Source: Ptychodera flava (lineage: Eukaryota; Hemichordata; Enteropneusta; Ptychoderidae). Taken from it: a stretch of DNA of 64,000 bases. The position numbers and the translations under genes were made by a program. The stretch spans positions 26,350,080-26,414,079 of the forward strand of contig NC_091929.1 of assembly GCF_041260155.1 (NCBI RefSeq), read 5' to 3'. Shown one piece after another: positions 21,148 to 64,000 of this stretch; position 1 is the stretch's first letter; each line of letters starts with the position of its first letter. Under the pieces are notes generated by a model. The model ran no database searches. It was not told the DNA's origin and worked only from the letters and a program-made list of their open reading frames with translations.

Positions 21148-21872
21148 AATATACAACACATTCATGAGGTGATTAATGCTAGTACAACATTACGAGTTGT
21201 TGAGAGTCTACACTGAGTAAAATACACTGCTTAATGTAATATATGCCATTAGTTCAAGTGCATATTGCTTATATCCATCTTGACTGGATTAATAATCCAA
21301 ACCTAACATGTATCGAAATGTACATCCTTCATTAGAAATACTCTAATACCAAGTACTTTTTAAAGCATTACAAAAAGGTTTATATATTCACCTCTACTCT
21401 GTACATATTTGGAATATTAAATGTATAAAAAACCCCACATCTTTTGTATGATAAATGCACGCGTTTACATAAAAATGCTTTCGAAATAAAGATAAAAAAT
21501 CGTATCCTTGGTGGTAAAAGGAATTGAAACCGAAAAGAGAGTCTGTATAACAACACTTTCAAAAAGAATGGTATAAATTCACACACAAAAAATGGTACAA
21601 TGTACATTTCTAAAAATTAAGTACTTCTCACTTGAGTAAAACAATATCAAAAGTTTGGGAATTGCAATTTTCCCAAAAATGCAACTTTTTAAAAAAATGT
21701 TAAAACAAATATGACAGTTTTCTAAATATGATCATCATTTTCATCAATTCAAAAGGAACACAGATTGTCTTTTTATATTGTCTGATCGGAAACATTAAAA
21801 CGTCATTACAGCTGTGCGATTTGTGATGCCTTGTGAACGCGAGTGCAACTAACTTATTTCTTAGAAAACCAA

Positions 21873-21878
21873 TTTATT
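21873..21878 (-). terminator. Poly(A) signal of MS4A-like copy A
   Basis: AATAAA on the minus strand, 84 nt after the stop codon. The equivalent hexamer is kept in copies B (35271-35276), C (45203-45208) and D (60560-60565). Confidence 0.7.
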
Positions 21879-21961
21879 TTTATCCTATAAAACATGTGTA
21901 AATGCAATGTCTGGAAGTTCTCAGTAGATTCTTCCAACAAGTTTCTCGACACGTAAAACCG

Positions 21962-60565: not shown

Positions 60566-60615
60566 TTCCTATAAAATATATAAATGCAGATTCTGCGTAA
60601 CAAGTTTCTTGGCAC

Positions 60616-63600
60616 TTAAAGTCGTTGAGTGTATGCCGGTGGCGACGTATCATTTGTGTCGGACTGCCCGCCCTTCACTTGATCTTGGCCGTAACAGGTT
60701 CCAGGTTCCTTGCCATAAGTGGCGCTTGTCCCTGCCGTAGGCACGGCGCTAAGCTGCACGAACATCGGCTGAGTGTTGTAAGGACCTTATTGGAAATAAT
60801 TAAAGATAAGTTTTTCTTTGTATCTAATACGACTGATGAAAAAATATTTGCTTCAAAATGAATCATATACTATCATTTATTACATATGTACCACAGTTTA
60901 CTTGCATCGAAGCGCGCGAGTACTACGGGTATTTGCACTGCAGTGCAATACCGAAAACATTATGCCATACCTTTATGTTAATGAGTATTTACCAATCTTG
61001 ACCCGGAACTATTTATGTTTGTAAACACAAAAAATGTCGTCTACAAGATTTCGTTTCACTTTGGTTCGATGCTTGCTATAGTAAAATGCATGACATTACC
61101 GATTAAAAACTACGACAAAGAAAATTGCATGTACTTATTATAGTGTGATGATGATTTTTATTATCCGGAAGAGCAGTTTGTTTGTCAGCGAAGCAAAAAC
61201 ATTGACAACGGGCGACGTCCGTTTCTAGCTCCATAGCCGGCCGCCATATCACGGCGGCCATTATACATCGAAACACACGTAACTGCGGGCGCAGCGGAGC
61301 CAGTTAAACAGTTAACATTTTCAGAGACGTTTTTGCCAGTCGTTTTCTCACCGGACATTCCCTGTTTACCATATAAAGTCACTTTTGCGTGCAGTTTATT
61401 CTGTTCTTGTGTGTCCTACACGCTATTGATAACAGAGACAGAGTAAGCGCTTGTGTGCCGCGGCCCGGTGCGGTGAACACTGAAATTTGATCGTTCGACA
61501 AGTTACGTTTGCCGTATCTTACTCTTAAATTTCCCATAAAAATCTTCGAACTGTTATTTATTTAGAAGAATTTCAAGCTCAAAATGTCAAAAGCGTTCCA
61601 CGTTCAAAATTCTCTTCGTTTGGCTATCTATGGCATGTTGCTACGTATGTGTGAGCTATCGCAAGCAGAGTTCAAGCCCCCCGACGTTCCTCTTACGTCA
61701 TCCTTGATAAACAAGTAAACAATAGTTTAGCCAATCAAAATGGAGGGTGTGGCGGCGTTGACCAATGAAAAGTGAAATCTGATTCGATGCCTCATTACAG
61801 TATGTCAATGTTATATAACTCCGCAAGGTCGCCCTGAAGCTTTGACAGACAAGTAGTACGCACGACTATCGTCGATTCTCTCGACAAATGATGCAAATAA
61901 AAGATAGAACATATGTAATAATAACAGAACCCATTGGCCTGTGAGTGCAAGCGCGCCGTACTAGCGGTATTTGCACGAGTGCTGCGGTGAATTCGGCTGT
62001 CCTTTCACTCGCTTCGCTCGTGAAAGGACTGCCGCCGAATACACCGCAGCACTCGTGCAAATATCGCTAGTACGGCGCGCTTGCACTCATAGGCCATGGG
62101 GTTCTGTCATAATACTATAACAATATATATATATATATATATATATATATATATATATATATATATATATATATATATATATATATATATATATATATAT
62201 ATATATATATATATATATATATACTAGTCCGTATCTTCACCTGTGTGACGTACACCAGCACGGATAAGAAATCCATATTACCCCGTTGTACGTCATCAAC
62301 CGGAGCTTTTTTCCTGCATGGTACCGTTCATACATCGTGCACGTCGCCATACAGACCGATTTGTCGTCATCGATGCTAGCTCCCATTACAAAAAGGTGAC
62401 TCGATAAATCCAGACATGGAAACATAAAAGGCATGTCCAACGAAATTTCGAGTTGCTAAAACTATAGCTCTTTCCGAGAATCGAATGGGGATACCGTCGA
62501 TCGTGTTAATTTAATGGATCAGAAACAGTAACATCGCCGCTCCAGGCGAGTCGTAATGCTCAATGTGGACGTCGTACCTGCAGCGATCCCGGTTGGCGAT
62601 AAACCCGAAATCTACACCTCAACGTAAGTTCAACTGAATAGAAAATCTTCGGAATAGTGACATAGGAGGTAGAAGCATAAAGTCATTTGACTACCAACGA
62701 TAAATTTCCTTCATCACACAAAAGTTCTGTAAATTCTCGCTCGGAATCAAACTTGCAGCGTAAGGCTGTAGCGAAGCGGTCGTGTCGAGCTGCTCTGCAG
62801 TGCAGCGCTGTGGAATCCGATGTATTTCGAAAGTTGACTCAGACAACGCTCAAACATCAAAGTCGAAAACATTGACGACCGCCGAGATCGGGATTGACGA
62901 GTTTACACCGGCGGAGACCGGTGACGGCAGCGTTGTGACCACAAACAAGGTCGTAAACCTGTGTGATATGTTCAAAAACCACGGCATCTATAAGAATGAG
63001 AATTATTGTGTCGATCGTGTCGTTGCATTTACTTCCATAATAAGACTCTGAAAACTATGGCTATCCGTCGCTAGCGCGGTGAAAGCTATGTCCGCCGATG
63101 GCCGACTTGCCTTGGCATAGGTACAGCGCGAGACAATGATTGGCACATTCACATGAGCGAATCCGTATGTCTGATTGGTGATCCGATGTATCAAAATTTC
63201 AATTTGATGTGATATGACGGGCCGCCTTACTCATGAAATTAAAGTAATCCGCGTAACTAAAACAAAAATCTCAACGAAATTCTAGCAATTTATTACAATA
63301 CTTTTGATCCATCCACGTCAAAAGAAAAATAAGAAGACTGTTTGATTTCATTGTATACTCCTGTTTTCGCGGAGCCGCACAAATTCTCGCCTTCGGCTCG
63401 AAGTTCTACGGCTCCGCGAAAAACACTCGTAGGATATATGTATATATATTAATTTTATTCCACCGAGCATTTGATATCATCATAAAATCCAGTATGCGCA
63501 ACGAACGACAGGTTAAAATGACTTCCGAATTTTCGAATGGCGCATTTTATATATCTCCCGCAAGAGTTCCTGGCGCCTGTATACCACAATGCATGTGTGG

Positions 63601-64000
63601 GCTTCGAACTTGCATTCCAACGGCTGGCACGTTGTGGGCGAGAGTCGAGGGCAATAGCAAATCGAACCATGTTATATCAATTTTTTGGAATATTACGTGG
63701 CTGACTTTTAGCCGATCACGGGATAAGAACCATAAGTGAGGCGCAATAATAATACTTATTGTATAATAGTTGAAAGTGTAATTAACGTGTAACTTTTATA
63801 CCATCAGAAAAGTTCACTTGTTTCTCTACGGTCTGAACAACATGATAACCAGATTGTGATAACTCAGAAAGTTTCTCAGTCGGTAGTAGATTTAGTGAAA
63901 TACTGTACTCTGCACATTGTGCACTACTTACCATATGGTGGCGGTGAACTCGGGCCACTAGGAGGCAATATTATTATTTGTTGGCCATATTGCGTTGTTG
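60616..64000 (-). CDS. MS4A-like copy D, last two exons (gene continues beyond the window)
   Basis: Exon 6 is 60785-60616: [20 protein letters not shown] ... [12 protein letters not shown], then TAA. Exon 5 is visible from 64000 to 63932, ending SSPPPYG at a GTAAGTAG donor. In the visible part the frame is open, including the stretch where copy B has a stop; the C-run that is expanded in copy C lies outside the window. Exon 6 differs from copy C at only a few residues, so C and D are the youngest pair in this part. Intron 5 is about 3.1 kb, against about 0.9 kb in copy C, because of an added block (60870-63450). Exons 1-4 are outside the window. Confidence 0.75.
61731..61850 (+). promoter_or_regulatory. 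Orphan CCAAT/CCAAT/TATA promoter-like stretch
   Basis: agccaatcaaaatgg (CCAAT at 61731), gaccaatgaaaag (CCAAT at 61762) and ttatataact (TATATAA at 61812-61818) are spaced as in a class II core promoter, with an expected start near 61845. Downstream there is no open frame beyond about 20 codons before a palindrome. It may be the relic promoter of a transposon or a copied gene. Confidence 0.35.
61922..62113. mobile_element. Long foldback palindrome, about 190 bp
   Basis: The left arm (acagaacccattggcct, gtgagtgcaagcgcgcc, gtactagcggtatttgc, acgagtgctgcggtg, attcgg) is mirrored on the right (ccgaat, caccgcagcactcgt, gcaaatatcgctagtac, ggcgcgcttgcactcat, aggccatggggttctgt) with few mismatches. 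The centre is cctttcac-tcgcttcgctc-gtgaaagg. Arms are about 85-90 bp. A (TA)n tract of 100 bp begins 10 bp later. No clear target duplication. Confidence 0.85.
62123..62223. repeat. (TA)n microsatellite, about 100 bp
   Basis: Uninterrupted alternating TA immediately after the long palindrome. Confidence 0.97.
63363..63424. repeat. Inverted repeat, 15-bp arms
   Basis: gttttcgcggagccg and cggctccgcgaaaaac flank a 31-bp centre that itself contains cgccttcggctcg. It resembles the end of a foldback element. Confidence 0.7.
63451..63755. repeat. Segment duplicated from intron 5 of copy C
   Basis: About 300 bp match 45852-46165 closely (attttattccaccgagcatt, aatggcgcattttata, cctggcgcctgtatacc, gtcgagggcaatagcaaat). 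This shows the C and D units share this intron and fixes the right border of the insert in D. Confidence 0.85.

Follow-up and report, generated by a model that had tools for sequence, protein, structure and literature searches.

Genes of the MS4A family are reported from cartilaginous fish onwards in a 2010 survey, which concludes that neither MS4A genes nor genes like them occur in invertebrates and that similar invertebrate sequences may have arisen by convergence, although possible relatives are named in lancelet, sea anemone, sea squirt and sea urchin (PMC2826416). The ancestry of the MS4A receptors is described as less well known (PMC7776563). The 64,000-nt stretch of DNA analysed here (the window) bears on the view that such genes are confined in origin to the jawed vertebrates; its right-hand part carries a tandem array of one six-coding-exon gene with a product resembling CD20. 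Membership of this gene in the CD20-like family PF04103 is firm on profile evidence. The reading that we favour, with moderate confidence, is that of a tandem CD20-like array whose product would span the membrane four times and serve as an endocytic adaptor for ubiquitin ligases with WW domains.

When the window is compared with itself, collinear stretches recur at distances of about 13.4, 10.0 and 13.7 kb and define four units, A to D, with the gene on the minus strand in all of them. With their edges set by a repeat found at the junctions (21146, about 34592, 44614 and 58361), the units measure about 13.4, 10.0, 13.7 and more than 5.6 kb for A, B, C and D, respectively. A preliminary description of this DNA, made from the letters alone, had proposed four units of about 13.4, 10.0, 13.8 and more than 5.6 kb that carry a six-coding-exon gene in a single orientation; both proposals are borne out, the strand being an addition. 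All six exons of copy A are found again in B and C, and part of exon 5 together with exon 6 in D. The coding sequence of copy A comprises 798 nt in exons of 174, 57, 159, 126, 118 and 164 nt and encodes 265 residues followed by a stop codon. All five introns are bordered by GT and AG; the first four are of phase 0, the fifth is of phase 1. The 3' splice acceptor of exon 1 lies before position 28353, 69 nt upstream of the ATG of copy A, and its sequence is identical in B and C; because the acceptor precedes the ATG and is kept in these copies, a non-coding exon further upstream is probable. The first AATAAA past the stop codon starts at base 84 in A, 82 in B and 51 in both C and D.

Searched against the PF04103 profile (length 156, curated cut-off 27.9 bits), copy A scores 38.3 bits (E 1.8e-9); copy C, taken over the 180 residues that precede an extra base in it, scores 48.0 bits (E 1.8e-12), the two matches covering profile positions 1-156 and 2-156. 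The reversed sequence of copy A, used as a control, gives no PF04103 match. A profile built from A, B and C and run with hmmsearch against 177,635 PDB sequences places MS4A2 at the top (E 1.7e-4), followed by CD20 (E 0.021); of the eight rows the leading six are MS4A chains, and the best unrelated chain has an E of 5.1. The motifs 'LGA-QI--G' and 'P-W-G--F---G', which are typical of MS4A, align between the array product and the MS4A chains. The product resembles MS4A proteins further in its PF04103 core over four spans, its size of fewer than 300 residues and its clustered copies, and it shares with MS4A2, in the profile alignment, two cysteines in the second outer loop. A structure prediction, another check proposed in the preliminary description, gives four long helices (residues 3-42, 47-69, 75-119 and 129-163) in a model too poor to inform on the fold (mean predicted local distance difference test score, pLDDT, 51.3).

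The CD20-like assignment of the preliminary description, for which a profile search had been proposed as a check, is thus upheld at E 1.8e-9 for copy A over nearly the whole model. The narrower name MS4A is upheld in part: MS4A2 and CD20 lead the PDB profile search, but PF04103 also includes FAM189A1, FAM189B and TMEM212 (PMC4815072), and a pair of PPxY motifs such as that in the array product is described for ENTREP. The PDB ranking does not separate MS4A from ENTREP. Sub-threshold Pfam rows were set aside, namely DUF2157 and DUF2070 for copy A, and ASFV_P17 (E 0.0004, 20.9 bits, cut-off 27) and RELT for copy C. Two exact peptide patterns, suited to close relatives only, were also run against viral contigs and prokaryote genomes, where none of 49 and none of 110 pattern matches were confirmed as relatives of the protein.

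The positions of the introns were compared with those of CD20 as well; PMC8776166, consulted on MS4A2 splicing, contributed no exon coordinates. As in the array gene, the CD20 coding sequence is spread over six exons (PMC4774009), the first of which includes part of the 5' untranslated region (UTR) (PMC13079139). Canonical splice sites of the CD20 coding sequence are listed at nt 160, 337 and 573 (PMC4774009, Table 1), and the site at nt 337 places CD20 intron 5 after codon 112 (SRKCL; PMC4774009). Intron 2 of the array gene, which follows residue 77, the last of exon 2, corresponds to L112 and hence to CD20 intron 5 in one of two alignments, that with MS4A2, which is free of gaps in this region, the step from MS4A2 ('YL-VRG') to CD20 ('CL-VKG') having been made by eye, and both introns are in phase 0. 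The neighbouring exon of CD20 is also 57 nt long. Other introns differ: CD20 intron 3, after the 'LG' of the first transmembrane span (TM1; the others TM2 to TM4), has no counterpart in the array gene, and intron 3 of the array gene, at TM4, lies by eye some 7-8 codons upstream of CD20 intron 6.

The array product may also differ from the MS4A proteins in its PPxY tail. Two PPxY motifs occur in the tails of all four copies, 52-53 residues apart from start to start, while of the 90 tail codons compared between A, B and C, 37 vary. In B and C the motifs stand downstream of the lesions, so that no copy but A and, judging from its visible part, D would produce them. ENTREP (FAM189A2) is reported to contain a CD20-homologous region and, in its cytoplasmic tail, two PPxY motifs that bind ITCH, and to promote ITCH-mediated ubiquitination and endocytosis of CXCR4 (PMC8811627). 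The array product shows the same order of a CD20-homologous region followed by a putatively cytoplasmic tail with two PPxY motifs; the gap between the motifs is given as 42 residues in ENTREP, a protein compared here by its description, and amounts to 48-49 in the array product. By analogy we infer an ENTREP-like mode of action, as a preference and not as a result. The product would be a four-span protein of the plasma membrane or endosomes with a variable outer loop containing two cysteines and a cytoplasmic tail rich in proline, tyrosine and glycine. Its two PPxY motifs would recruit the WW domains of NEDD4/ITCH-type ubiquitin ligases, and this recruitment would couple the partner bound by the membrane part to ubiquitin-driven endocytosis.

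Several observations weigh against this reading. Pairwise similarity to MS4A is low, phmmer with copy A alone against PDB reaching CD20 only at E 0.15, and in the phmmer alignment to CD20 a two-residue gap puts the shared intron two codons off. Foldseek, run with the low-confidence model (pLDDT 51.3), returns no match under E 0.001, and its fold matches carry no information. At least two PPxY motifs are present in 969 of 20,000 shuffles of the tail, a frequency that makes the motif count alone a weak point, so that the argument from the motifs is one of conservation and not of count. ENTREP differs in proportions, with a tail described as 343 of 450 residues compared to about 95 in the array product, and its isoform b is reported as single-span, whereas the low-confidence model of the array product has four helices. 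For the history of the array, A and C are closest to each other in introns 2-3, which renders the tree of the units a mosaic.

It is possible, although we lean against it, that within PF04103 the gene belongs to the ENTREP/FAM189 branch, as a member with a short tail, and not to the MS4A branch. The breadth of PF04103, which takes in FAM189A1, FAM189B and TMEM212, and the CD20-homologous region of ENTREP/FAM189A2 leave room for such a placement, and the pair of tail PPxY motifs is as in ENTREP. The size of 265 residues, on the other hand, is MS4A-like, and the PDB searches returned only MS4A proteins as PF04103 relatives, ENTREP having been compared by description.

Somewhat unlikely is a true MS4A-type receptor or channel component, whose core would sense a ligand or partner a receptor with the tail as a scaffold, in which case the array would be a diversifying receptor cluster. 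The profile of A, B and C does find MS4A2 and CD20, and MS4A1 is reported as a mammalian olfactory receptor (PMC11026480). Moreover, the outer loop between TM3 and TM4 (residues 107-137), which keeps its two cysteines in A, in B (in its own downstream frame) and in C, changes faster than the core in all three pairs. Residues differ at 11 of 27 loop and 15 of 123 core positions between A and B, at 16 of 27 and 30 of 123 between A and C, and at 18 of 27 and 37 of 123 between B and C (Fisher P about 0.001 in each pair). The ratio of non-synonymous to synonymous substitution rates (dN/dS) of the loop is 1.15 for A-C and 1.09 for B-C, against 0.42 and 0.43 for the core. For A-B, however, the loop ratio is 0.49, the counts are small, and relaxed constraint explains the fast loop as well as diversifying selection does. 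With two loop ratios close to 1 and one well below it, positive selection on the loop was considered and is put no higher than a possibility. Such a receptor would also leave the conserved PPxY motifs unexplained. A dN/dS above 1 in the tails of C and D (11 versus 1 changes) is not read as a sign of selection, the changes being too few.

The copies are in different states. The reading frame of copy A is open through all 265 residues. Copy B lacks four bases near 38044/38045 in exon 3, a deletion that destroys the frame past codon 96 and brings a stop into frame at codon 100; its exon 5 has TAA near 36785-36787 where A has CAA. Neither lesion falls within a homopolymer, and copy B is certainly broken. 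Copy C has GGGGG instead of GGGG in exon 5 near 46443-46447, with a stop at codon 202, and no further frame lesion was seen across its six exons. Lesion coordinates in B and C were counted by hand from the alignment output. In copy D the visible part of exon 5 and exon 6 are open. These states agree with those given in the preliminary description (A intact, two independent lesions in B, a single tail frameshift in C, D open where visible), but its term 'decaying array' applies securely to B, as the state of C hangs on one base in a G run and A and the visible part of D are open.

One-base length differences in homopolymers are a frequent consensus error, and since the extra base of copy C sits in a G run, it may be a sequence error, in which case the gene would be intact. 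Weakly against such an error, copy A has no lesion of this kind in 0.8 kb of coding sequence, and pieces of a neighbouring TFIP11 gene (described below) align without obvious breaks, an observation of little power as the pieces were chosen as open frames. If the lesions are taken at face value, the fates of the two messages would differ. A premature stop far upstream of later exon junctions leads to nonsense-mediated decay, by which the message of copy B should be destroyed; regardless of its fate, the frameshift would remove everything from the end of TM3 onwards, with the outer loop, TM4 and tail. The stop of copy C (nt 604-606) is located 26 nt upstream of the last exon junction at nt 632, and under the usual 50-nt rule a stop so close to the last junction spares the message. 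The copy C message could therefore survive, giving a four-span core without PPxY motifs.

To assess constraint, unique changes were counted by parsimony over 263 aligned codons (253 of the 265 sense codons are gap-free in A, B and C), codons without a majority base being excluded as well. The A branch carries 15 non-synonymous (N) and 13 synonymous (S) changes (N/S per site 0.36, P versus neutrality 0.008), the B branch 30 N, including its own stop codon, and 25 S (0.38, P 0.0004), and the C branch including the stem 63 N and 31 S (0.64, P 0.03). The A and B branches thus show fewer non-synonymous changes than neutral evolution would give, although exchange between units could blur these counts. 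As the B branch was constrained for much of its separate history, the lesions of copy B are probably recent and the copy a young pseudogene. That the whole array is dying, with A and D silent as well and the family being lost, appears improbable: B is broken twice and C once, and the C branch with its stem stands at an N/S of 0.64, yet copy A retains an open frame with splice sites, 5' acceptor and AATAAA, and the A and B branches show the deficit of non-synonymous changes. Chance similarity of an unrelated four-span protein, in line with the 2010 conclusion on invertebrate candidates (PMC2826416), is very improbable in view of the above-cut-off, near full-model profile match in two copies, the clean reversed control, the MS4A chains first in PDB and the shared intron. 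Common descent is argued for by the near full-length family match together with the shared intron in a probably non-vertebrate genome.

The junctions between units offer a view of how the array grew. They carry an element of about 360 nt that ends in TTAA and has inverted ends of about 20 nt (TTAAGGTAG...); it is probably a miniature inverted-repeat transposon that targets TTAA. Its ends match the window 14 times with at most three mismatches and are absent from 100 shuffles; the copies are 70-92% like the consensus, and the end sequences have no exact match in viral contigs and the prokaryote genome collection. A shortened element is present at all three internal junctions (weakly at A/B), and an essentially complete one at the left edge of the array. 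Intron 2 holds a further copy in each of A, B and C; because its orientation is the same in all three, it probably predates the duplications. The first duplication breakpoint would have fallen within the element adjoining the gene and would then have been copied on in later unequal exchanges between units, which we infer as the simplest account of the junction repeats. In the tail regions, A and B on the one hand and C and D on the other are the closest relatives by quartet sites, 55 of 62 of which support AB|CD over two non-overlapping regions (31 and 24 versus 3 and 4 for other splits); a third region overlaps the second and is excluded from this count. If each unit had been inherited as a block, a plain ((A,B),(C,D)) tree should hold throughout; it fits the tail regions but is rejected on the closeness of A and C in introns 2-3. 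Since the two regions give different closest pairs, exchange between units is likely.

A largely complete TFIP11 gene is located to the left of the array, in minus-strand open frames from about 4.1 to 18.4 kb (4100-18400). Its open-frame pieces, chosen by eye and then joined, score 831 bits to the solved TFIP11 chain 8ro2_TF, which we take to be the human protein, and 425 bits to the septin and tuftelin-interacting protein 1 homolog 8ro0_TF, which presumably comes from a nematode. Identity to 8ro2_TF is 365 of 679 aligned residues (53.8%; seven of eight blocks, main stretch). Vertebrate TFIP11 proteins resemble one another far more than this, so the host is probably a non-vertebrate animal. 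The invertebrate host of the preliminary description thereby gains indirect support, short of proof.

Positions of the gene copies and of the repeat element in the window
Feature	Position	Strand	Remarks
Copy A exon 1	28111..28353	minus	69-nt 5' UTR part, ATG at 28284; TM1 and start of TM2
Copy A exon 2	25977..26033	minus	57 nt, phase 0 at both ends; TM2
Copy A exon 3	24725..24883	minus	TM3 and large outer loop; two Cys common to B and C
Copy A exon 4	23593..23718	minus	TM4 and Cys-rich juxtamembrane stretch
Copy A exon 5	22903..23020	minus	Tail; first PPxY at residues 208-211
Copy A exon 6	21962..22125	minus	Second PPxY of the tail (residues 261-264) and stop; AATAAA 84 nt further on
Copy B	35358..39805	minus	Exons 39632-39805, 38937-38993, 37951-38099, 37406-37531, 36739-36856, 35358-35518
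Copy C	45259..50542	minus	Exons 50366-50542, 49810-49866, 48279-48431, 47175-47300, 46353-46471, 45259-45428
Copy D, visible part	60616..64000	minus	Exon 5 from 64000 to 63932, exon 6 60616-60785; exons 1-4 beyond the window
Element, essentially complete (consensus 5-359)	20785..21145	minus	Left edge of array
Element, degenerate and shortened	34533..34592 (approximate)	minus	A/B junction; from pattern scan with 3 mismatches and alignment, absent from blastn matches
Element, shortened (consensus 2-104)	44513..44613	minus	B/C junction
Element, shortened (consensus 1-98)	58266..58360	minus	C/D junction
Element family, further copies	4426-4780, 6131-6483, 7804-8117, 9126-9466, 17199-17421, 19072-19432	both	Both orientations across the family
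Element family, continued	24963-25246, 25442-25782, 38164-38525, 48495-48826, 49028-49244, 49253-49601		Also a fragment, 11710-11761

Other repeats are found in and around the units. The upstream part of unit A contains a (GTAT)n array of 602 nt (29518-30119) and a (TCAT)n array of 650 nt (33700-34349). An (ATGT)n array of 151 nt in unit C (51041-51191) aligns with the (GTAT)n array, and no second TCAT array is among the arrays listed at a score of at least 100. The upstream region of unit C also holds a tandem array with a 146/293-nt unit (52994-53834), for which the self-comparison matches include no counterpart in other units. A 246-nt inverted repeat pair (28630-28875 and 60011-60256, 83% alike) probably represents a second interspersed family, and a repeat family of about 225 nt lies left of the array (1832-2054, 6886-7111, 8264-8487 and, inverted, about 3368-3570; 76-83% alike).

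Repeated duplication of the gene recalls the vertebrate MS4A expansions, for which syntenic human genes and 21 closely related zebrafish genes are reported (PMC2826416). The host of the present array, in contrast, is probably outside the jawed vertebrates. The array itself has a junction repeat and at least one clear pseudogene. Among the papers listed in literature searches on MS4A and PF04103, mostly outside subscription journals, no title or abstract opening reports an invertebrate MS4A gene. Invertebrate PF04103 proteins exist as database records, and the array gene is therefore not a new kind of gene. To the preliminary description the present analysis adds the PPxY tail with its ENTREP alternative, the shared intron, the junction repeat, the caution on copy C and the TFIP11 neighbour. 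Tandem growth is easy to read in this array, with its junction repeat and copies at differing stages of decay. The PPxY tail forms a link between ENTREP, as an activator of ligases, and the short form that resembles MS4A, and the origin of the CD20 family becomes testable by a tree. Tentatively, and with rather low confidence, we suggest that the array gene has kept the state from which the CD20 superfamily set out, namely a short protein with four spans that served as an endocytic adaptor and recruited ligases through a PPxY tail before the jawed vertebrates; MS4A would then have lost the motifs and ENTREP lengthened the tail. If this were true, the CD20 family would predate adaptive immunity, contrary to its published absence from invertebrates.

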